DNA of 64,000 nt from an uncultured Oscillibacter sp. (GCA_947365245.1 CANAWG010000006.1:1-64000), one strand, 5' to 3'. Numbered from the stretch's first letter, positions 5,261 to 17,734 are shown. Made by a program: numbers and translations. The notes: generated from the letters alone by a model not told the origin.

Positions 5261-6113
5261 TCAGTGGAATGGCTGTGCAGGCCTCTCTCTTTCTTTGAGA
5301 ACAGCGTTGCTTATTTCGCGGAAGCGAAAAAGCTCTGCATCCAGCCCCAGGCTGTTTACCCCGTCCGCCATGGTATTGCGGGGGATGCAGAAAGGTACAG
5401 TGGTCTTGCCGCTGAGATTTTCGCTTTCCAAAAAAGTATAGATAATACGGGGTGCATCGTTGTTCCAGCTGGGATAGCCCAGGAAGATCACGTCATACCG
5501 CTCCATGTCCGCCGCGCTGTTGGCAATGGCGGGATTTGCATGGCGGTCATAATTCATCAAAGCATCGGCGGCCTGGGCGCGGGCGGCGTTGGTCTTGGGG
5601 GAGAACACACCGCCGGAGGTGGGACGCACGATGCCGTTGGCACCGGCCCAGGCTGCGGCGGCGGCATAAGCGGAGATTGTGGAGGCGTCGCTGTAAGTGC
5701 CGTTCCCACCCGCTGCCGGGCTGCCCGCGCCGCGCCGGAGGATCGCGGCCATCTGCTCACGGAAAACCGGATCGTTGGGGCCGAACAGCCCGCCGCCATG
5801 GCCGCTTACAAGGTTCTGCCGGGAGGCCCGCAGCGCCGCATCAGCGTACCATGCGCCATCGGGCGTATCGGTAAATGCGTCCCTGCCGGTGACTGCCGGA
5901 GAACCGGTAGAGGACGGCCGCCGGCTGTGCGCGGGTCAGATTGCTTTCGGGGGCAAACGCAGTGTCAGAGGTTCCGAACATCAGGCTGTGTTCCCGGCAG
6001 TACATGACGGCCTCGGCATACCAAAAATCGGCACTAACATCGGAGACGCCGGTATCCGTCAGATTGGCAGAGGCCGTGACCGGCAGAACGAGGGTCAGGG
6101 TGGCCGCCATCAT
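5261..6113 (-). pseudogene. SLH-domain plus flavodoxin-like surface protein, frameshifted and internally deleted
   Basis: NLTDTGVSDVSADFWYAEAVMYCREHSLMFGTSDTAFAPESNLTRAQ (SLH) in one frame; SLH plus MERYDVIFLGYPSWNNDAPRIIYTFLESENLSGKTTVPFC in another; FMN-binding N-terminal half of the flavodoxin missing. Confidence 0.8.
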
Positions 6114-6232: not shown

Positions 6233-7603
6233 TTATTGAGCGATTACACCGGCCGTCCGCCAGACCTCCCGGCGATAACGCCAGACAAAGCACGCCGACC
6301 GGGCCAGCCAGTCCATGCCCATGGCGATCCACACGCCGATGACCCCCAGCTCCAACACCACGCCGAACAGGTAGGCCGACCCCAGGCGAAACACGACCAT
6401 GGAGAACACGCCCACATACATGGTGTACTTCACGTCCCCCGCCGCCCGCAGGCTGTTGGCAAGATTGAAAGACGTGGGGTGAAGGGCGATGGCCAGCAGA
6501 TTGTGCATGACAATGAGCAGCGCGGCCAGCCGTAAGGTCTCCGGTTCCAGGTTGTAAAACCGCAGAATCAGGGGGAGCGACAGGCAGACAATGCCGCTGA
6601 GAACAGCCGTGGCGATGTAGGAAATTTTCATCAGCTTTTTCGTGTAATACTCCGCCTGCTCATATTCTTTGGCCCCCACACACCGGCCCACCACGGTAAT
6701 CACCGCCAGATTCACGGCGCTCACCACGATAATGGCAATCTGGTTGATGGAGTTGGACACGCCGTTGGCGGCGATCTGCACCGTCCCGAAGCCGGAGACA
6801 ATGCTGGTGACCAGCACTTTCCCCAGGGCAAACAGGCCGTTCTCCACCCCGCCGGGGACGGCAACCCGGAGAATACATCCCACTGTGTCCCGCTCCAGAG
6901 TCAGGATATTGCCCCAGCGGAGCCGCACCTCATGCCCGGACCGGAAAGCCAGGGCGGACATGATAACCGCCGCCGAGGCCCTGGCGATCAGGGTGGGGAC
7001 GGCCACTCCCAGCACCCCGGCGCGGAGGATGGCCACTCCGATAAAGTCCCCCGCGATGTTGATGGCGTTCATAATAAGGGAGACGTACATGGTCATGCTG
7101 GTGCGCCCCAGGCTGCGGAACTGGGCCGCCGCCGCATGATAGACGCCCAGGAAGGGAAAGGAACAGGCGGTCACCAGGAAGTAGGTCAGGGCGGCGCCCA
7201 TTACGTCCGGCTCCACCGATCCGAAAAACAGATGGAGAATGGGTACCCGGAACGCCGCGCACACCGCCATGATTCCAGTGGAAAACAGGGCGGAGACGGC
7301 CACCAGCTGTCCCGCGGAAAACGCCGCCCGGTCCGGTTTCCCGGCACCCAGATACTGGGACAGCACCACCGCGCCTCCGGTGGTCAGGGCGGTGAGGACG
7401 GTGATGACCAGATAATTGACCATGTCCACCAAGGCCACGCCGGACACCGCCGCCTCCCCCACGCTGGACACCATCACCGTGTCCGCCATGCCCACCAGCA
7501 TCACGAGGATCTGCTCAATGACAAGAGGACACAGGAGCTTTTTTAAGTCGCGGTTTGAGAATAACAAGGCCTCGATTCTTTGAATTTGACAATGATGGGT
7601 CAT
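6233..7603 (-). CDS. MATE family efflux transporter
   Basis: 12-TM MATE-like sequence (LVIEQILVMLVGMADTVMVSSVGEAAVSGVALVD). Confidence 0.9.
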   Translation of the reverse strand: MTHHCQIQRIEALLFSNRDLKKLLCPLVIEQILVMLVGMADTVMVSSVGEAAVSGVALVDMVNYLVITVLTALTTGGAVVLSQYLGAGKPDRAAFSAGQLVAVSALFSTGIMAVCAAFRVPILHLFFGSVEPDVMGAALTYFLVTACSFPFLGVYHAAAAQFRSLGRTSMTMYVSLIMNAINIAGDFIGVAILRAGVLGVAVPTLIARASAAVIMSALAFRSGHEVRLRWGNILTLERDTVGCILRVAVPGGVENGLFALGKVLVTSIVSGFGTVQIAANGVSNSINQIAIIVVSAVNLAVITVVGRCVGAKEYEQAEYYTKKLMKISYIATAVLSGIVCLSLPLILRFYNLEPETLRLAALLIVMHNLLAIALHPTSFNLANSLRAAGDVKYTMYVGVFSMVVFRLGSAYLFGVVLELGVIGVWIAMGMDWLARSACFVWRYRREVWRTAGVIAQ

Positions 7604-7811: not shown

Positions 7812-8555
7812 TCAGTATTTAAGACCCTCCAGCCATGTCTCCACTGTGGCCCGCGCCGTACTGAGCGGGGCGTCCATCCCCGGCCTCTGAACGCCCGCCG
7901 CATCCAACACCGTAACAGCGGGAAGGGCCGCTCGGATGTCCCTCACACTGGAGGCAGGGCCGCTGGTTCCATGGGCGCAGAACGGAATCACCGTTTTCCC
8001 TGTGAAGTCATAGCTGTCTAAAAAAGTGAATACCGCCATGGGGCAGGCGGCCCGCCAGTCCGGGCAGCCCAGGAACACCACATTGTATTCATCCATATTC
8101 CCCACGGAGCCGGACAGGGCGGGTCTTGCGTTGTCCGCCTTCTCATCGGCGGCCCGGTCCAGGCATTCATCGCAGCCGCTGGAATAGGGATCTGCCGTAA
8201 TGATCGAGAACAAATCGCCTCCGGTCTTCGCCTGTATCCACGCGGCCATCTGTGCCGCATGACCGAAAGCCAGAACGCTGGCCGAGGCGGCGGCGTCCAC
8301 ATCCACAGCGGAGGGGTCGTCTGCCACCGTGTTTTCCGCCCAGGTAAAATAGGCGATCAGGATTTTCGTGCGTTCTTCCGCCGCGCTTTCCGGCGGATTT
8401 TCCGGCTTGGCCGGCGAGGGGGCATTTTCCTCCGGTTGGGCCGGCGGTGAAAGCACTTCTGCGGAAAGCACTGTATTCGCGGTTCCGCAGACGGACAGGG
8501 CTAAACCTGCAGCCACGCATATTGGAAGTATGAACCGTTTATATTTCACTTTCAT
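7812..8555 (-). CDS. Secreted flavodoxin-like protein
   Basis: N-terminal signal-like segment, Pro/Glu linker, KILIAYFTWAENT, YNVVFLGCPDW, SYDFTGKTVIPFCAHGTSG. Confidence 0.88.
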   Translation of the reverse strand: MKVKYKRFILPICVAAGLALSVCGTANTVLSAEVLSPPAQPEENAPSPAKPENPPESAAEERTKILIAYFTWAENTVADDPSAVDVDAAASASVLAFGHAAQMAAWIQAKTGGDLFSIITADPYSSGCDECLDRAADEKADNARPALSGSVGNMDEYNVVFLGCPDWRAACPMAVFTFLDSYDFTGKTVIPFCAHGTSGPASSVRDIRAALPAVTVLDAAGVQRPGMDAPLSTARATVETWLEGLKY

Positions 8556-8600
8556 CGCTTCTCTCTCTTGAATCTATTGTAACTGAGGGTTTAACAAAGG

Positions 8601-8643
8601 TAAAATACCTAATATGGATTACCTACCATGCTCTAGCCGCATG
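8601..8643 (-). promoter_or_regulatory. 43-bp regulatory box copy 1 (TAAAATACCTAAT...CATGC-N7-GCATG)
   Basis: Shared with 13061-13103 and 14217-14259; lies just upstream of the flavodoxin at 7812-8555. Confidence 0.8.
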
Positions 8644-8940
8644 ATTGTTGGTGCAATAATACGACAGCCGCTTCAGGGACAGCTGTCGCATTATTGGGAG
8701 AAAAGAGGGAAATTCTATGCACCTGCAGGAATACATGTGAGCGTGTCAAACATTCGGAGGAAACCGATAAAGTGTAGACATTGTGTAAAGCGTTTTCTTT
8801 TCAAATACGTAATTCTATATCAGAAAACCGATCAACCACACCAGCAGAGAAGCGGTTGGAAGATTTGGGAGGATTGAACGCCGGGAGGAGATTGTATCTG
8901 AGACAACTCCCTCTCGGCTCGGACAGCGAACACGATCCTA

Positions 8941-9354
8941 TCAATTCTGATCCAGCCTGCCGTATTCCTCGTCTGTCACCGGCTCCAGCCACTCGTTGGA
9001 GATATTCTCGCCGGGGATCTCAATGGCAATATGGGCAAACCAGCTGTCCGCCGCCGCGCCGTGCCAGTGCTTCACGCCCGCAGGAATCGCCGCCACATCA
9101 CCGGCGCGGAGTTCCTGAGCGGGCTTCCCCCACTCCTGATACCAGCCGCGTCCGCCTGTGACCAGCAGAATCTGACCGCCGCCCTTGTCGCCATGATGGA
9201 TATGCCAGTTATTCCGGCAGCCCGGTTCAAAGGTCACGTTGGCAGCGCCAACGCCGTTAAGCTGCGTTAACAGAGCCAGATAGGACTGTCCGATAAAATA
9301 TTCACCAAAGGGATTGGGTTCGCCCTTTTCAAACATCGTCTCAAATTCATTCAT
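8941..9354 (-). CDS. Cupin domain protein
   Basis: NVTFEPGCRNNWHIHHGDKGGGQILLVTGGRGWYQEWG...IPAGVKHWHGA. Confidence 0.9.
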   Translation of the reverse strand: MNEFETMFEKGEPNPFGEYFIGQSYLALLTQLNGVGAANVTFEPGCRNNWHIHHGDKGGGQILLVTGGRGWYQEWGKPAQELRAGDVAAIPAGVKHWHGAAADSWFAHIAIEIPGENISNEWLEPVTDEEYGRLDQN

Positions 9355-9372
9355 AAGACATACCACCTTTGT

Positions 9373-10056
9373 TTATTTTGTTCTGTAGCGAATGAAAACC
9401 GCGCCGGAATCGCAGGCTTTTGCCTCGATCAGCTCTAAGGGCGTTGGCTCACCGCGGCCGTTGTCCCTGCGGTTGAAAACAGGCGGGAAGGAGGCCCGGC
9501 CATCGATCCCGGCTCCGATCAGCACGATTACCTCGTCCAGGAGCCCCGCGTCCAGAAATGCCGTGTTGACGGCGGGACCGCCCACAATACCCAGCCGTTC
9601 AATGCCGAAAGTCTCCTTTAACACCGCGCAGGCAGCGGCCAGGTCGATCCGGGTATCGCCGGTCACGATGCAGGAAATGTTCCTCTCATCCAGATAGGCC
9701 AGATATTCCAGGCTGACCTGCTTGGAGGTAATGAGGATGTGGGGCTTGTCATACTGGCTGTCATGCTTCCAAAGCAGAGTACCCTTGGTATCCACCACAA
9801 TGTTGTAACCATTGCCGCTGTCTGCTTTCTTGGAAACCATGTCTTTCCCGGCGGGCACACTGTGTTCCGGCTTAAATTCACCCGGCTCCGCCAGCTCCAG
9901 TCGGGCGGTGGTCTTTCCACTGACCGCCGACTGAAGGCCCAGTTCCGCAAGCAGGGGGTAATAATCCTCCACGCCCGCAAGCCGGCCTACCATGTCGCAG
10001 TCAATCCTCCCATCAACGGAGGTCATCATGTAACATACGATATACGGTTTGTTCAT
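9373..10056 (-). CDS. RibD C-terminal / dihydrofolate-reductase-like family protein
   Basis: MTSVDGRIDC...GIVGGPAVNTAFLDAGLLDEVIVLIGAGIDG. Confidence 0.88.
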   Translation of the reverse strand: MNKPYIVCYMMTSVDGRIDCDMVGRLAGVEDYYPLLAELGLQSAVSGKTTARLELAEPGEFKPEHSVPAGKDMVSKKADSGNGYNIVVDTKGTLLWKHDSQYDKPHILITSKQVSLEYLAYLDERNISCIVTGDTRIDLAAACAVLKETFGIERLGIVGGPAVNTAFLDAGLLDEVIVLIGAGIDGRASFPPVFNRRDNGRGEPTPLELIEAKACDSGAVFIRYRTK

Positions 10057-10074
10057 CTAAATCGTTCCTTTCAA

Positions 10075-10594
10075 TCATTTTGCTGAGATATCGTTCTCCG
10101 CCGGCCAAGCGGCTACGTCTCCTGACAGGCTGGAGCCGCCGGAACAGGAGACGGCCAGCCCCTCGCCTAACGCAGCGTCAGGCGCCAGCTCTGTAATCGC
10201 CGTCAGGCTCTGCCCAAAACCGTCCGCCGCCGCGGGTGTTGCAATACTGGATGGCGTCCGTCCAGGAAACGCCTTCCACAGGGAAATCATCCCCAGTGAA
10301 GGAGCTGGGATTCTCTCCCATGGCAGCCTGATACTCAGCCCGGGTCACTTCATACCGGCTGATATAAAAGTCGCTGAGTGTGACCGTGCGGGCGGTTTCG
10401 TCCTCTGAACGCCACGGCTCTGATTCCGGACTGCCCATCTGGAAAGTTCCGCCGTTTATCAGAATAAATCCCTCTGGCGGCGCGATTTCAGGGGATGTGG
10501 GATCCGCAGGCGCAGCGTCAGCCCGGCTCGGCGTCTGGTTTGTTTCAGAGAGAGCGAAGGGCTCCTCCTGTTCGGCGTCTCCGCATCCCGCCAA
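10075..10594 (-). pseudogene. Chimeric remnant: formylglycine-generating-enzyme (SUMF1)-like lipoprotein 5' half joined to a flavodoxin C-terminal tail
   Basis: GFILINGGTFQMGSPESEPWRSEDETARTVTLSDFYISRYEVTRAEYQAAMGENPSSF...VEGVSWTDAIQYCN, then in a shifted frame GFGQSLTAITELAPDAALGEGLAV...DVAAW. Confidence 0.72.
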
Positions 10595-10706
10595 CGCAAG
10601 CGCCAGCAGGATAATACTGAAATACGCTTCATGTGCTTTCCAACTCCTGTTTCATACGAAGAGGCCCCACCCCAGCCGGGATGGGGCCTCTCTCAGCATC
10701 CAATAT

Positions 10707-11861
10707 TTAAGCCGCGGGGGTCAGTGCCAATCCCAGGCCGTTCACCCAGGTCTCCACCGCGGAGCGGGAGGCCCCGCCGCTGAACCTCTGGCCATACAGC
10801 CATGTGGCGGAACCGGCGAGAGTGTGGAGATTTGCGGCGCTGGAGCCAATGCCGCTGCTGCCGGAGGTGCAGAAAGGCACAATGGTCTTGCCGCTCAGGT
10901 CATAGCTCTCCAGGAAAGTATAGATGATCTTCGGAGCCTGCCCCCACCAGATGGGGTAGCCCAGGAAAATCACATCATACTGCTCCATGTTGTCCACACT
11001 GCCGGAGACAGCGGGGCGGGCGTTCGGATCGTTCTGCTCCTGATTGGCGCGGCAGTCGGCATGATTGTAGTTCAGGTCGGCGCTGGTGTAGGGCTGCTCC
11101 GGCACGATCTCATAGAGATCGGCGTCCAGAATGGCGTCCAGGTGGTTTGCAATAGCTTCCGTATTGTTGGTGGCGGAGAAATAAGCGACCAGGACCCTGC
11201 CGCCGGCAGAGGAGGTATCCGGCGTTTCGGAAACGGCCGGGGTTTCGCCGCCGGAGGAACGGTTCATGTACTGATACAAAGCGGAGACGATCTCCACGCG
11301 GGCGGCGGGAGCGGCGGGGTCAAAGCGGCCATCCTCCCGGCCCGCCATGATGTTGTTGGCTCTGGACCAGTCCACGGCGGTCTGGGCATAGCCGGAAATG
11401 GCGCCGTCGTCTGTATAATCCTCAGCGGAGGCGTCCGGGCTCCCCGCCCAGCGCCAGAGAATGGCAATCACCTGCTGGCGGGTCACATTGTCGCCCACGC
11501 CGAAACGGCCGTCCTGGTATCCGTTGATGAGCCCGTTGTCCGCCGCCCAGCTGGCGGCGTCCACATAGTAAGCCCCTGCCGCCACATCGGAAAAACGGGT
11601 GGTGCCGGAGGCGGCGGGACTGCCTGCCGCGCGGTAGAGGATCGCGGCAAGCTGCTGTCGGGCCACATTGTCATGGATTCCGAAGCGGCCGTCGTTGTAG
11701 CCGTTGACGTAGCCCTGCTCCGCCGCCCAATTGACCGCTTCGGCGTAGGACGCACTGTCAGGCACATCGGAAAAACGCTCCGCTGCAAAGGCCGGGACGG
11801 CCAGGGACAGCGACAGAACCAGGGTCAGGAGCAAAGCTCCAAATCGTTTCAGATTTTTCAT
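10707..11861 (-). CDS. SLH-anchored flavodoxin (signal peptide, three SLH repeats, flavodoxin domain)
   Basis: RFSDVPDSASYAEAVNWAAEQGYVNGYNDGRFGIHDNVARQQLAAILYR (SLH x3) followed by VLVAYFSATNNTEAIA...YDVIFLGYPIWWGQAPKIIYTFLESYDLSGKTIVPFCTSGSSG. Confidence 0.92.
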   Translation of the reverse strand: MKNLKRFGALLLTLVLSLSLAVPAFAAERFSDVPDSASYAEAVNWAAEQGYVNGYNDGRFGIHDNVARQQLAAILYRAAGSPAASGTTRFSDVAAGAYYVDAASWAADNGLINGYQDGRFGVGDNVTRQQVIAILWRWAGSPDASAEDYTDDGAISGYAQTAVDWSRANNIMAGREDGRFDPAAPAARVEIVSALYQYMNRSSGGETPAVSETPDTSSAGGRVLVAYFSATNNTEAIANHLDAILDADLYEIVPEQPYTSADLNYNHADCRANQEQNDPNARPAVSGSVDNMEQYDVIFLGYPIWWGQAPKIIYTFLESYDLSGKTIVPFCTSGSSGIGSSAANLHTLAGSATWLYGQRFSGGASRSAVETWVNGLGLALTPAA

Positions 11862-11900
11862 GGTTGTGATCTCCTTTTTGTTTTTTATTTAATTGATCGT

Positions 11901-12240
11901 CAGTGTGCGGCGTTTTCCAGCCACTCGCTGATTTCCGCTCTGTCATAGGAGGAGCAAGTGACCTCCGGGCTTTCTTTGATGACGCGGGTGGAAGCGAGCT
12001 TTGCAATCGCGCTGATGGGCTGGCCGAGGTATCCGCCCCCATACAGAGCAGAAAGGGACGATGGTCTTGCCGCTGAAGGCGTACTGATCCACCGCCTGGG
12101 ACGCCTCCGTTTTTGCCATGTGGAAGCTGCCACCTGCTGCGCTGTGCCGGGTTTCGTCAGAACTGCGCTCCACCGGCCGGACCGCCCTCGATCCGGTAGA
12201 GGGCCGCGGCAAGCCGCGCTCGGGTCAGGCTGTTCATGTT
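11901..12240 (-). pseudogene. Decayed SLH-flavodoxin remnant
   Basis: LTRARLAAALYRIEGG (SLH end), YAFSGKTIVPFCS and GGGYLGQPISAIAKLAS...ISEWLENAAH in different frames. Confidence 0.72.
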
Positions 12241-12253
12241 TCCCGCCCCCTTT

Positions 12254-12790
12254 CTATTTCAGGGAAAGGCCCAGCTGATAGGCTTCCTGGGGAAACCGTG
12301 AGCGTTCAATGTCGGGACGGGCGCCGCAGCCCACCGCCAGTACCCGGCCGCTGTCCTGCCAGCGCATATACCGGGCCAGCGTCTCGTAGTGGGCTGTCAG
12401 GGCCGACATGGTCCAGTCGCTGCTGTCGTAGGCGGTTGCCATCAAAAACACTTTCTTGCCGCCGGTCAGCTTGCAGCTGTCGGCGTAGAAGCGGTCAATC
12501 ACTGTTTTGATCTGGGCGGAGAAGCCGAAGTAGTACAGCGGCGTCACCAATGCCACCGCCTGGGAGGCCAGCAGCTCCGGCATCAGCTTCTGCATGGCGT
12601 CTTTCTGGACGCAGGGGGCCGCGCCGATCCCGCAGCGGTTACAGCCCAGGCAGGGAGCTGCCTGCTCAAAGGCGGCATCGAAGCGGAAGGTTTCCCATCC
12701 GGCCTCCCGCGCGCCCCGGATAAACTCATCCGCCAGCAGAGCGGAGGTTCCCTTTTTGTGAGGGCTTCCTGTGATAATGGTTGCTTTCAT
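12254..12790 (-). CDS. NAD(P)H-dependent FMN reductase / flavodoxin-family protein with Cys cluster
   Basis: IITGSPHKKGTSALLADEFIRGA...APCLGCNRCGIGAAPCVQKDAM. Confidence 0.9.
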   Translation of the reverse strand: MKATIITGSPHKKGTSALLADEFIRGAREAGWETFRFDAAFEQAAPCLGCNRCGIGAAPCVQKDAMQKLMPELLASQAVALVTPLYYFGFSAQIKTVIDRFYADSCKLTGGKKVFLMATAYDSSDWTMSALTAHYETLARYMRWQDSGRVLAVGCGARPDIERSRFPQEAYQLGLSLK

Positions 12791-12801
12791 ATCCCCCCTC
12801 C

Positions 12802-13011
12802 TTAAATACCGGGCTTCACGAACAGGATCTTATCGGGAAATTGCTTCATGGACTCGGCCCACTTCTCCTTGGGGATGTCCTGGACGGACACAGAGACAAA
12901 CTTGGGATCCATGCCCAGCTCTCCCGCCAGGAACGCCTGCGTTTTCGATGCAAGAGCCTGTTTCGTCTCATTATCCCGTCCCGGAATCATCGTAATGGCG
13001 ATATGCGGCAT
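12802..13011 (-). CDS. 4-oxalocrotonate tautomerase family protein
   Basis: MPHIAITMIPGRDNETKQALASKTQAFLAGELGMDPKFVSVSVQDIPKEKW; Pro after Met. Confidence 0.88.
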   Translation of the reverse strand: MPHIAITMIPGRDNETKQALASKTQAFLAGELGMDPKFVSVSVQDIPKEKWAESMKQFPDKILFVKPGI

Positions 13012-13060
13012 ATTCAAAACCTCCTTGATGGGTTCATTGTAGCGAAAAAGAATATAAATG

Positions 13061-13103
13061 TAAAATACCTAATCCGGATCATTTATCATGCCTTTTCTGC
13101 ATG
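13061..13103 (-). promoter_or_regulatory. 43-bp regulatory box copy 2
   Basis: TAAAATACCTAATCCGGATCATTTATCATGCCTTTTCTGCATG. Confidence 0.8.
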
Positions 13104-13169
13104 ATAGGAAATGATACGACAGCTGTCAAAAGATTGCTGCCGTACCATTCGCAAAGAAAGGAAGTACTA

Positions 13170-13943
13170 TTAACCGGCCAGTCCGAGCCGGGCCAGCCAG
13201 TCCGTCACGTCATCCGCCGCCTGGGGAGAACGGCTGTCACGCAGCGAGAGGCCCTCCAATACCGCGGCATCCGGTTCCGCATTTTCAATGGCTTGAATCG
13301 TGCCGGAAAAACCGCTGCCGCCCGAGGTGACGAAAGGAATGATGGTCTTGCCGCCGAGGTCGTATTCATCCAAAAAACTGTAAACTGCCATAGGCATATC
13401 GCCCCACCAGTTGGGGAAGCCCAGAAATACTGTGTCGTAGCTGTCTAAATTGTCAATATGGGATATCAGTTCCGGGCGGGCATTGGCGCCTTTCTCCGTC
13501 TGCCCCACGTCGATGGTGTCGTTGTAGTTGTCCGGGTACTGTTCCGCCGTCAGGATGGAGAACAGCTCGCCGCCGGTTGCCTCGGCGATCATATCCGCTA
13601 CAAGTCCGGTATTTCCGGTAAGAGTGCCGTCCGTTCTCAGCTGGATGCTGGCGGAAGTGGAGGCGTCCACGTCGTCAGACAGAGGAGCGTTTTCCCCATA
13701 GGCAAAGTAAACAATCAGGACACCGTTTCCGGCATTCCCCGCCGGCTCGGTCGTTTCGGGGGTATCCGCAGGGGCGGAAGTATCGGGCGGCTCTTGGGGC
13801 TGGGAGCTGCCGGGTGTTTCTTCAGGCTGGGATGCTGCAGGCGCAGAGGGGACGCCGCCGCTCGCCGCGCTCCGGCCGCCTCCACAGGCGGTCAGAGCGC
13901 AGCAAAGGACAAGGACCAACAAAAAAGAGAGGGAATTTTTCAA
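13170..13943 (-). CDS. Flavodoxin lipoprotein
   Basis: Lipobox LTACGG, Pro/Thr/Glu linker, GVLIVYFAYGEN, YDTVFLGFPNWWGDMPMAVYSFLDEYDLGGKTIIPFVTSGGSGF. Confidence 0.92.
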   Translation of the reverse strand: MKNSLSFLLVLVLCCALTACGGGRSAASGGVPSAPAASQPEETPGSSQPQEPPDTSAPADTPETTEPAGNAGNGVLIVYFAYGENAPLSDDVDASTSASIQLRTDGTLTGNTGLVADMIAEATGGELFSILTAEQYPDNYNDTIDVGQTEKGANARPELISHIDNLDSYDTVFLGFPNWWGDMPMAVYSFLDEYDLGGKTIIPFVTSGGSGFSGTIQAIENAEPDAAVLEGLSLRDSRSPQAADDVTDWLARLGLAG

Positions 13944-13959
13944 GCAAAAGCTCCTTTAC

Positions 13960-14150
13960 TGAACGATTTCAGATGTAACCTTTCCGATGGGATAGATCCG
14001 CATGGTCAGATTGGGATTGCCGGACTGGCTGTAAAAGATGGCGGCGGTGTTGTTGCCGGGGCAGTAGGTGATGTATCTTCAAAGCGGAGCCGGGCGACAA
14101 ACTGCCGGGCCATGCCGCTGTGAGTAATAAGATTCGTTTCATCTATGGTT
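13960..14150 (-). pseudogene. Remnant of a cyclophilin-like-fold protein
   Basis: Minus-strand YCPGNNTAAIFYSQSGNPNLTMRIYPIGKVTSEIVQ-stop; no intact 5' part. Confidence 0.5.
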
Positions 14151-14216
14151 CCTCCTTACTGCCGCCGGTTCTCTCCCCGCCGGATGCGGTCATTCTATCC
14201 GAAAGCAAAAAGAATG

Positions 14217-14259
14217 TAAAATACTTATTTTGAATTATTTACCATGCTTATTATGTATG
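14217..14259. promoter_or_regulatory. 43-bp regulatory box copy 3, in the LysR upstream region
   Basis: TAAAATACTTATTTTGAATTATTTACCATGCTTATTATGTATG. Confidence 0.75.
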
Positions 14260-14342
14260 ATAAAATAAGAACGCCGGCTTGACATGATCCTTTAAACCGC
14301 AGATAATAGAATAGAAAACAGGCATAGAGAGGTGTTCATGAT

Positions 14343-15227
14343 ATGGATATTCGATTGTTAGAATACTTCCTGGCAGTGGCAAAATACGGGAATATTACCC
14401 GCGCTTCAGAGCAGCTCCACGTCACCCAGCCCACCATCAGCCGCCAGCTGATGGACCTGGAGGAGACGGTGGGGACGCCGCTGCTGATCCGGGGCAAGCG
14501 GCAGGTGACGCTGACGGAAGCGGGCGTCCTGTTCCAGCAGCGGGCGGAGGAGATCGTGTCCCTGATGGAAAAGACCATGCGGGATGTGATCGGCCAGAAC
14601 GACCTGTTGGGCGGGACTGTCACCATTGGATGTGTGGAGACCCGTGCGTCCCGGATACTGCCGAAAGCGTTGAAAGGGTTTTCAGAGCAGTATCCCAAGG
14701 TGCAATATGAAATTTACAGCGCGGACGGGGACGACATCCGGGAGAAGCTGGATCTGGGCGAGCTGGACTTCGGCGTTCTGGTGGAGCCGGTGGAGTCCGC
14801 CAAATACGACTTTTTCCGTCTGCCCTACTGGGAGACCTGGGGGGTGCTGATGCGGAAAGACGATCCGCTGGCCCGGAAGCCATGCCTTGAAAAAGAGGAC
14901 GTCCTGCCGCTCCGCCTGATTATGCCCCGGCGGGAGATCGTACAGGATCACATTGCCGGCTGGTTTGGCGTGGAGCGCGGACAGCTGAACGTATTTGCCA
15001 GCCATAACCTCATCAATAACGCCGCCCTTTTGGTGGAGGCGGGCCTGGGCTGTGTGGTCTGCACCGGGGGCTGCTTTGAAATACGGGGCGGGGAAAACCT
15101 GCGTTTTGTCCCCCTCTCCCCGGAGCGGACCACCGGCCATGTGCTGGCCTGGAAAAAGAACCGGGTGTTCCACTCGGCGGCCAGCCGGTTCCGGGACTAT
15201 ATTCGGGAGACGGAAGCCGCGAAATAA
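14343..15227 (+). CDS. LysR family transcriptional regulator
   Basis: MDIRLLEYFLAVAKYGNITRASEQLHVTQPTISRQLMDLEETVG. Confidence 0.95.
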   Translation: MDIRLLEYFLAVAKYGNITRASEQLHVTQPTISRQLMDLEETVGTPLLIRGKRQVTLTEAGVLFQQRAEEIVSLMEKTMRDVIGQNDLLGGTVTIGCVETRASRILPKALKGFSEQYPKVQYEIYSADGDDIREKLDLGELDFGVLVEPVESAKYDFFRLPYWETWGVLMRKDDPLARKPCLEKEDVLPLRLIMPRREIVQDHIAGWFGVERGQLNVFASHNLINNAALLVEAGLGCVVCTGGCFEIRGGENLRFVPLSPERTTGHVLAWKKNRVFHSAASRFRDYIRETEAAK

Positions 15228-15309
15228 TACAATTCAGGCATGATAAGCCATTCAATCAAAGCATTAGACTATTAAACTGTTTTGACTTATGATAGTGCCA
15301 AGGGTAGAA

Positions 15310-15344
15310 AAAACCGGCAGACGGGGTGGCCCGCTGCCGGTTTT
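15310..15344 (+). terminator. Rho-independent terminator after lysR
   Basis: AAAACCGGCAG...CTGCCGGTTTTCTGTCT. Confidence 0.75.
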
Positions 15345-15375: not shown

Positions 15376-16554
15376 ATGAGCTATATGATGTACGCACCCA
15401 CCCGTGTTTTGTTTGGAGCCGGACAGCTGAACCGCCTGCATGAGCAGGCTTTGCCGGGGAGGAAAGCCCTGCTGGTCATCACCGGCGGGAAATCCGTCCG
15501 AGAGAACGGAGCGTTGGACCGCACTTTGGAGGAGCTGGCCCATGCTGGAGTCCAGACTGTCTTGTTCGACAAGGTCCAGGCCAATCCGATGAAATCCACT
15601 GTTATGGCCGGGGCGAAGGCGGCCCGTGAAAATGGCTGCGACTTCGTTGTGGCCCTTGGCGGCGGCAGCGTCATGGACGCGGCAAAGATCATGGCGTTGA
15701 TGGCGGCCAACGAGGGCGACCTGTGGGATTACGTCAGCGGCGGCACCGGAAAGGGACAGACGCCGCCCAATGCGCCCCTGCCCGTGGTCTGCATCACCAC
15801 CACCGCGGGGACGGGCTCTGAGGTAGACCAGTGGGGTGTGGTCAACAATGAGGAGACCCAGGAGAAAATCGGCTGCGGCGGGCTGGACAGCCTGTTCCCG
15901 GTGCTGTCGGTGGTGGACCCGGAGCTGATGGCCTCCGCCTCCGTGCCGCCCCAATTCACCGCCTATCAGGGCTTTGACGCGCTGTTCCACTCCACCGAGG
16001 TCTATATCGGCAAAATGGCAAATCTTATGAGCGACATGGCGGCGTTGACGGCCATCGAAAATGTGGGCGGCTATTTGGTTCGCGCGGTAACGGACGGCGG
16101 CGACAAAGAGGCGCGGGAGCATGTGGCTTTTGCCAACACCATGTCCGGCTACTCTATGGTCACCGGCTGCTGCACCAGCGAGCACTCCCTGGAGCACGCC
16201 ATGAGCGCCTGCCACCCCAATCTCCCCCACGGCGCGGGCCTCATCATGATCTCTCTGGCCTACTATCAGCACTTCGTGGACAAGGGCTGCTGCCCGGAGC
16301 GGTTTGTCCGCATGGCAAAGGCGCTGGGAAACGCGGATGCGCAGAAACCCCAGGACTTCATCTCAGCCCTTGCCCAGCTGCAAGGGGCCTGCGGCGTGGA
16401 TGCCCTCAAGCTGTCCGACTATGGCTTCAAGCCGGAGGAGTTTGACGGCATTGCCCGCAGCGCCAGAGAGACGATGGGCGGGCTGTTCTTTGCCGACCCC
16501 TGCGAGCTGACCCACGAGGACTGCGTGGAGATCCTGAAAAAATCTTATCGCTGA
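15376..16554 (+). CDS. Iron-containing alcohol dehydrogenase
   Basis: MMYAPTRVLFGAGQL...VALGGGSVMDAAKIMAL...STEVYIG; conserved His motifs. Confidence 0.92.
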   Translation: MSYMMYAPTRVLFGAGQLNRLHEQALPGRKALLVITGGKSVRENGALDRTLEELAHAGVQTVLFDKVQANPMKSTVMAGAKAARENGCDFVVALGGGSVMDAAKIMALMAANEGDLWDYVSGGTGKGQTPPNAPLPVVCITTTAGTGSEVDQWGVVNNEETQEKIGCGGLDSLFPVLSVVDPELMASASVPPQFTAYQGFDALFHSTEVYIGKMANLMSDMAALTAIENVGGYLVRAVTDGGDKEAREHVAFANTMSGYSMVTGCCTSEHSLEHAMSACHPNLPHGAGLIMISLAYYQHFVDKGCCPERFVRMAKALGNADAQKPQDFISALAQLQGACGVDALKLSDYGFKPEEFDGIARSARETMGGLFFADPCELTHEDCVEILKKSYR

Positions 16555-16565
16555 GAGGTGCGGTC

Positions 16566-17045
16566 ATGTCGAAGAAAAGTTTGGTCCTGTATTACTCCTG
16601 GTCGGGAAATACCCGGAAAATAGCGGAACTGATTGCTCAGAAAACCGGCGCCGATCTACGGGAGCTTCAGCCGGAAAACGCCTATCCGCAGAATTATAAT
16701 GATGTACTCACCCAGGCCAAACGGGAGATTCAGGGCAAGTGGTATCCCGCCCTGCGTCCCATCGACATGGACTGGAGCGACTACGGGACTGTCTACCTGG
16801 GGACCCCCAACTGGTGGTCCTCCATCGCCCCGCCTGTGGCCTCCTTTTTGAACCAGGTCATGCCGACAGAAAAAGCCATCGCTCCTTTCTGCACCCACGG
16901 CGGGGGCGGTGCGGGACATATTGCCAAGGATATTGCAAAATTCTGTATCGGCTGCGATGTTCTGCCCCTGCTGGCCGTTCAGGAGGACGGAGGGACAAAT
17001 GCGGGAAAGTTGGTGGATCAGTGGCTGAAACAAATCGGAGCGTAA
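16566..17045 (+). CDS. Flavodoxin (cytosolic, no signal peptide)
   Basis: LVLYYSWSGNTRKIAELIAQKTGADL...YGTVYLGTPNWWSSIAPPVASFL...TEKAIAPFCTHGGGGAG. Confidence 0.92.
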   Translation: MSKKSLVLYYSWSGNTRKIAELIAQKTGADLRELQPENAYPQNYNDVLTQAKREIQGKWYPALRPIDMDWSDYGTVYLGTPNWWSSIAPPVASFLNQVMPTEKAIAPFCTHGGGGAGHIAKDIAKFCIGCDVLPLLAVQEDGGTNAGKLVDQWLKQIGA

Positions 17046-17083
17046 AGAAAAAACAGGCTCTGCGCCACTTGGCAGATTTTGCG

Positions 17084-17734
17084 ATGACGCTCCTTGTGCC
17101 GGCCTTGATGGCCTACTCTGTCACCGGACAGATGGTTCATGAGTGGATGGGTGTCGGGATGCTTGTGCTGTTTCTCCTCCACCACGGACTGAACGCAGCG
17201 TGGCTGCGCTCTTTGACCAAGGGCCGCTATACACCGCTGAGAACACTTCAAACCGCATTGGTATTTCTCCTGTTTGTCAGCATGGCGTCGCAGATTGTCA
17301 GCGGCTTTGCTATGTCTCGCTGTGCCCTGCCATTCTTGAACATTCCTATTTCCACATCCACCGCCCGCCTTTTGCATTTAGCCTGCGGGTATTGGAGTTT
17401 TCTTCTCATGGGACTCCACCTGGGTCTGCATTGGAGCGCGTTTCTTGGCTTAGGCAGAAAATTGAGAGGGGGCCAGCCCCTCCCCTCAGCGGGACGCTGG
17501 TGCCTGAGAATACTGGCTGGAGCGGCGGCGACATGGGGTGCAATCTGCTTTATCCGGCAGAATATCGCGGACTATCTGTTTCTGCGGACGGAGTTCGTAT
17601 TTTTTGACTATGAAAAGTTCCCTTTGCTGGCACTGGGAGAGCTGGCCGCAATCATGGCGCTGTGGACACTGGTTGGGCATCGGCTTCAGCGGCTGGCGAT
17701 GCGATACGGAAAGTCATCGCACAGCAAAGACTAA
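17084..17734 (+). CDS. DUF4405-type membrane protein with conserved TM histidines (putative b-type cytochrome-like)
   Basis: VHEWMGVGMLVLFLLHHGLN and HLACGYWSFLLMGLHLGLHW; paralog of 45893-46567. Confidence 0.8.
   Translation: MTLLVPALMAYSVTGQMVHEWMGVGMLVLFLLHHGLNAAWLRSLTKGRYTPLRTLQTALVFLLFVSMASQIVSGFAMSRCALPFLNIPISTSTARLLHLACGYWSFLLMGLHLGLHWSAFLGLGRKLRGGQPLPSAGRWCLRILAGAAATWGAICFIRQNIADYLFLRTEFVFFDYEKFPLLALGELAAIMALWTLVGHRLQRLAMRYGKSSHSKD

Follow-up and report, generated by a model that had tools for sequence, protein, structure and literature searches.

A predicted LysR regulon with one rigid double-dyad promoter layout in an uncultured Oscillibacter sp. and its relatives

In the textbook promoter controlled by a LysR-type regulator (for instance, those of PltR and PnpM), a T-N11-A box lies at about -65, a second site near -43 overlaps or abuts the -35 hexamer, and the regulator gene is divergent. 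CidR is known as the activator of cidABC. In Acinetobacter baylyi, the sequence bound by BenM is ATAC-N7-GTAT, and its Site 2 adjoins the -35 hexamer; at PbenA, the imperfect second dyad lies beside a -35 that is sub-optimal, TTGAAC (PMC6628147). Here, a locus in an uncultured Oscillibacter sp. is compared with these systems, using a stretch of 64,000 nucleotides (GCA_947365245.1 CANAWG010000006.1:1-64000; hereafter the window). Four sites in it, S1 to S4 (Table 1), are very probably activator-controlled, sigma-70-type promoters of a single regulon switched by the LysR protein encoded at 14343-15227.

A sequence-only reading of the window had reported three copies of a 43-bp operator. All three were located where it had placed them, with the letters that it had quoted, and the offset of 26 nt from TAAAAT to the inverted repeat is constant in all of them. 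With up to three mismatches allowed, 0.00 matches to the 43-mer consensus are expected by chance (100 dinucleotide shuffles of the window), and the whole-genome motif search proposed in that reading found the three-copy pattern (≤3 mismatches) only at S1-S3 in 2.82 Mb, with no match for the pattern read backwards. The count of three fell short: a fourth, weaker copy, S4 (AATACAATTCAGGCATGATAAGCCATTCAATCAAAGCATTAGA), had been overlooked and first came up when scanning related loci showed looser letters. A pattern loosened to admit S4 finds exactly four sites in the 2.82-Mb genome and none in the control. All four fall inside a 7-kb region surrounding lysR (8.6 to 15.3 kb in the window), and the position of S4 is kept in many relatives. 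The direction of the copies had also been misread, as S1, S2 and S3 are all oriented toward minus-strand genes.

Each of the four copies is a complete promoter unit, in which conservation continues past the 43 bp as far as a -10 hexamer, whose offset is fixed. Read toward its target gene, the unit consists of dyad 1 (ATRC-N7-GCAT), dyad 2 (ATYC-N7-GYAT), the -35, 17 bp and the -10; the dyads are 23 bp apart from centre to centre, the -35 directly abuts dyad 2, and the spacer to the -10 is exactly 17 bp in all four copies. A scan blind to the dyads called sigma-70-like promoters at 4/4 sites, with sub-optimal -35 hexamers that are one or two bases off TTGACA. Both dyads satisfy T-N11-A, and AT(G/A)C-N7-GCAT is present in 4/4 copies. 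Among 41 non-identical sites, most of them from related loci, the A-T and A-T columns of that dyad are invariant and the dyad letters in general are invariant or nearly so, with N7 cores that vary. The role of TAAAAT had been misread: on the coding strand (ATTTTA) it is the end of dyad 2 joined to the -35 (GTAT-TTTACA), and it was dropped as a -10 because a better -10 (at least four of six positions) lies downstream at one exact offset in 38 of the 41 sites (9 sites at the next best offset). Transcription starts about 7 nt downstream of the -10; with the start predicted there, the dyad centres would fall near -66 (dyad 1) and -43 (dyad 2), a sequence geometry that matches the textbook layout of a regulatory site (RBS) and an activation site (ABS).

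Table 1. Features of the locus, with coordinates in the window
Feature	Coordinates	Strand	Details
Operator S1	8601..8643	-	Dyad 1 CATGC-N7-GCATG (8643-8627), dyad 2 ATCC-N7-GTAT (8619-8605)
Operator S2	13061..13103	-	Dyad 1 CATGC-N7-GCATG, dyad 2 ATCC-N7-GTAT
Operator S3	14217..14259	-	lysR divergent region; dyad 1 CATAC-N7-GCATG, dyad 2 ATTC-N7-GTAT
Operator S4	15226..15268	+	Overlaps lysR stop codon; dyad 1 ATAC-N7-GCAT, dyad 2 ATTC-N7-GCAT
S1 promoter	8576..8604	-	-35 TTTACC, 17-bp spacer, -10 TACAAT; promoter scan
S2 promoter	13036..13064	-	-35 TTTACA, 17-bp spacer, -10 TACAAT; promoter scan
S3 promoter	14192..14220	-	-35 TTTACA, 17-bp spacer, -10 TAGAAT; promoter scan
S4 promoter	15265..15293	+	-35 TAGACT, 17-bp spacer, -10 TATGAT; promoter scan
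Secreted flavodoxin (Flavodoxin_4)	7812..8555	-	Gene 1 behind S1
MATE-family transporter	6233..7603	-	Gene 2 behind S1
Small 4-oxalocrotonate-tautomerase-like protein	12802..13011	-	Gene 1 behind S2
FMN_red / flavodoxin-fold NAD(P)H oxidoreductase	12254..12790	-	Gene 2 behind S2
Flavodoxin-cyclophilin-like fusion pseudogene (secreted type)	13969..14142	-	Directly behind S3; blastn, translations
Flavodoxin lipoprotein	13170..13943	-	Next gene behind S3 after the pseudogene
Iron-containing alcohol dehydrogenase	15376..16554	+	Gene 1 behind S4
Flavodoxin_4 protein	16566..17045	+	Gene 2 behind S4
DUF4405 / cytochrome-b561-like membrane protein	17048..17734	+	Behind S4
LysR-type regulator, presumed binder of S1-S4	14343..15227	+	HTH_1 + LysR_substrate
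lysR promoter, near consensus	14279..14307	+	TTGACA, 17 bp, GATAAT
Conserved hairpin, S4 leader	15308..15344	+	6/15 pairs with compensatory changes, 9 sequences

On these promoters, a LysR tetramer would bind as two dimers, one on dyad 1 as the RBS and the other on dyad 2 as the ABS, roughly two turns of the helix further downstream and in contact with the -35, and the second dimer would recruit RNA polymerase upon effector binding. The promoters would need this second dimer because their -35 hexamers (TTTACA, TTTACC or TAGACT) are weak alone. S3 would probably be common to lysR and its target, with dyad 1 serving the autoregulation of lysR. The same sites could instead work mainly by repression, effector-free LysR on dyad 1 and dyad 2/-35 blocking the polymerase and the effector merely releasing it. 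Dyad 2 does adjoin the -35, and BenM and CatM, when no effector is bound, act as repressors from Sites 1 and 3 (PMC6628147); however, -35 hexamers one or two bases off consensus, set against a divergent lysR promoter near consensus, fit activation, and dyad 2 stops upstream of the -35 and does not cover the -10. We consider a mainly repressive regulon unlikely.

S1 stands upstream of the secreted flavodoxin gene and faces it, and S2 faces both the tautomerase and the FMN reductase genes, behind which more minus-strand genes follow. S3 lies between lysR and the flavodoxin lipoprotein gene, but the pseudogene stands first and the lipoprotein gene next. The pseudogene has retained its start and C-terminal end, most of the middle being deleted and the frame broken; intact flavodoxin-cyclophilin relatives, on which the Pfam assignment was made, are found in three related loci (L039, L042 and L061), and L037, a very near relative, shows matches to the same pieces. 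In other loci, a MATE gene lies directly behind a matching operator (L037, L043, L045 and L059), the FMN_red gene is the first behind one (L039), and a homologue of the DUF4405 protein is the first gene behind an S4-type site (L042). The target set (flavodoxins, tautomerase, FMN reductase, Fe-alcohol dehydrogenase and MATE) suggests a redox or electrophile response, and it may be guessed that the inducing signal is redox-related or electrophilic (quinone- or aldehyde-like).

Several other elements lie in the same cluster. More incomplete flavodoxin_4/SLH gene pieces are present on the minus strand (11943-12212 and 5261-5752), and the flavodoxin genes of this cluster seem to multiply and decay. 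At 10710-11861 (minus strand), S-layer homology domains are fused to a flavodoxin, the product of which is probably held outside the cell, and SLH-flavodoxin-cyclophilin fusions are present in L059 and L068. Immediately upstream of S1 (8658-8700) and of S2 (13110-13150) stand two similar inverted repeats (CGACAGC...GCTGTCG), likely the ends of preceding transcripts; the second also contains a promoter-like site (TTGACA-17-TATCAT, 13129-13101) that extends into S2.

The presumed regulator scores over the cut-off for both HTH_1 (80.7 bits) and LysR_substrate (103.5 bits). It falls short of the cut-off of every curated LysR subfamily model shown; CidR scores best but was rejected (the 144 bits stay below the cut-off of 415, and the targets do not resemble cidABC), as was the CatM/BenM subfamily (67.8 bits against a cut-off of 580 on the curated CatM model). 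In this genome, one protein only matches it at E ≤ 1e-40, and more distant LysR proteins are likely also present. S3 sits between lysR and the minus-strand genes as a divergent, shared operator region, and the distance between the centre of S3 dyad 1 and the start of the -35 of the lysR promoter is 28 bp, compared with 24-28 bp in six relatives. Behind lysR, a strong hairpin lies between the S4 promoter and the alcohol dehydrogenase gene, so that a transcript from S4 must cross it. In L060, a natural variant that counts in favour of the proposed regulon and in which the LysR protein is 89% identical, the divergent operator retains dyad 1 and the lysR promoter, without dyad 2 and the -35/-10, and the S4 operator has decayed. 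The hairpin is retained there, for which reason it was rejected as a leader attenuator of S4; its persistence where S4 decayed makes it more likely a lysR terminator than an S4 control element, and a lysR terminator is most likely what it is.

Several points count against the proposed regulon. Transcripts from S4 meet the putative lysR terminator hairpin before the alcohol dehydrogenase gene, so that read-through is required; the first gene behind S3 is a pseudogene; and S1-S4 could in principle be read by another LysR protein sharing the box.

The unit is conserved well beyond this genome. Related loci whose LysR proteins are 74-96% identical to this one (L037-L045) mostly carry matching units next to lysR, and also before flavodoxin, flavodoxin-cyclophilin, MATE, FMN reductase, aldo-keto reductase or GH3 genes. 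At up to five mismatches, 375 kb of related loci give 51 matches, some of which are one site counted on both strands; the reversed sequence gives none. A unit with 2 to 5 mismatches lies within 500 bp, on one side, of many LysR homologues at about 40% identity, whereas the backward control and most shuffles have at least 7. Some units stand before other kinds of genes. In L039 (unit at 10214) and L040 (unit at 11224), the gene concerned unexpectedly encodes a family 3 glycoside hydrolase whose ends look membrane-like, and in L061 (17444-17486) a unit of the same grammar stands before a gene of the ApbE family (FMN transferase family), a target that would be consistent with the maturation of secreted flavoproteins.

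The full grammar, including the -10, was then scanned with at most one mismatch in 397 genomes of the order. It occurs at 82 sites in 51 of the 397 genomes, representing 37 genera, against one site in the backward control. A relative of the LysR protein (scored at E ≤ 1e-50) is present in 118/397 genomes, namely in 49 of the 51 with the motif and in 69 of the other 346 (Fisher p ~2e-27, with independence overstated because the genomes are related). Forty of the 82 sites are no more than 120 bp away from such a lysR gene, 18 of them divergently upstream and 22 directly after the stop codon; these two arrangements are the positions of S3 and S4, no other was found among the 40, and position alone predicts adjacency for about 0.0003 per site. 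Many families of the order have the same grammar next to lysR genes, the identity of the LysR relatives going down to about 37-40%. Of 30 loci fetched from the scan, 12 have a LysR relative within 1.5 kb and 28 have a match near the site to LysR or to MATE, aldo-keto reductase, cupin, flavodoxin, FMN reductase or RibD_C, although six of these 28 show no more than a weak aldo-keto reductase match, perhaps to a different member of that superfamily.

This distribution also bears on whether the operators might be read by a different regulator, of the same or another family, encoded elsewhere. The remaining 42 of the 82 sites are away from any lysR of this clade, and two genomes (G156 and G240) have the motif with no LysR match at E ≤ 1e-50. 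Against these stand the co-occurrence of the LysR protein with the motif in nearly all motif genomes, the contact of half of the sites with a lysR gene in two fixed arrangements, and the dyad itself, which is the T-N11-A box of LysR proteins; a different regulator is quite improbable. The earlier claim of an operator set for the adjacent LysR protein is well supported in computation by the T-N11-A box, by the confinement of the sites to the neighbourhood of lysR and by the grammar beside LysR relatives, although it was incomplete, as each of the four copies is a double dyad with a whole promoter.

A further reading takes the 43-mers as a mobile or duplicated repeat, that is, as promoter cassettes copied together with flavodoxin genes and lacking a current common regulator. 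Several flavodoxin paralogues and decayed gene pieces do share the cluster, but the copies match in operator and -10 and have unrelated flanks (identity by 20-bp blocks), their dyad letters are fixed while the N7 centres vary, and the grammar recurs beside LysR genes across many families; the order-wide scan largely refutes this reading. The genome-wide repeat that had been named as a possible refutation is not what is seen, as there are four sites only in 2.82 Mb; with unrelated flanks and no copies in the rest of the genome, a repeat or mobile element was ruled out as the source of the pattern and is very unlikely as an account of it. That the palindrome acts as an RNA element, a small leader hairpin CATGC..GCATG, is scarcely credible: a terminator scan lists CATGCTCTAGCCGCATG as a weak stem, but the palindrome lies upstream of the predicted start in every copy, the stem is just 5 bp, and the spacing to the -35/-10 is the feature that is conserved.

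By every feature that can be tested in sequence, this set of promoters is a LysR regulon, and its mechanism would be the ordinary LysR one. The regulon is apparently undescribed, as no paper on it was found in the open-access literature. Taken across the order, it is likely that a LysR clade and one rigid promoter code, in which 23 bp separate the two dyads and 17 bp the -35 from the -10, control a set of redox and electrophile-response genes in many families of gut Clostridia, a set that would be predictable from sequence and includes flavodoxins, flavodoxin-cyclophilin fusions, aldo-keto reductases, Fe-alcohol dehydrogenase, cupin, FMN reductase and MATE. To our knowledge, the control of transcription in gut bacteria of the Oscillospirales type has been little studied, and we know of no physiology assigned to the secreted flavodoxins, aldo-keto reductases and Fe-alcohol dehydrogenase found here. 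The order-wide code is the part of most interest: its specificity (82 sites against one in the control, 397 genomes) links these orphan enzymes with a single regulator and opens both the regulon and the signal that induces it to direct testing.

Among known systems, BenM is the closest worked example for the proposed activation. PbenA and PcatB, the promoters of BenM and CatM, share with S1-S4 the T-N11-A dyad and a second dyad at a sub-optimal -35, and the DNA-binding domain of BenM can be aligned with that of the LysR protein, the recognition segment differing at two positions (QPPLSRQ in BenM, QPTISRQ here). In contrast to BenM and CatM, the targets here are not genes of aromatic catabolism, and several promoters follow one rigid layout. 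CidR, the best-scoring NCBIfam model, is similar over the full length of the LysR protein (residues 1-289). In layout, there is correspondence with the textbook RBS/ABS promoter, which likewise has a box near -65, a second site near -43 at the -35 and a divergent regulator gene; the locus described here differs in that the dyad-dyad and dyad-promoter spacings are invariant in four promoters and throughout the order, and in that an extra conserved site lies directly after the stop codon of lysR.
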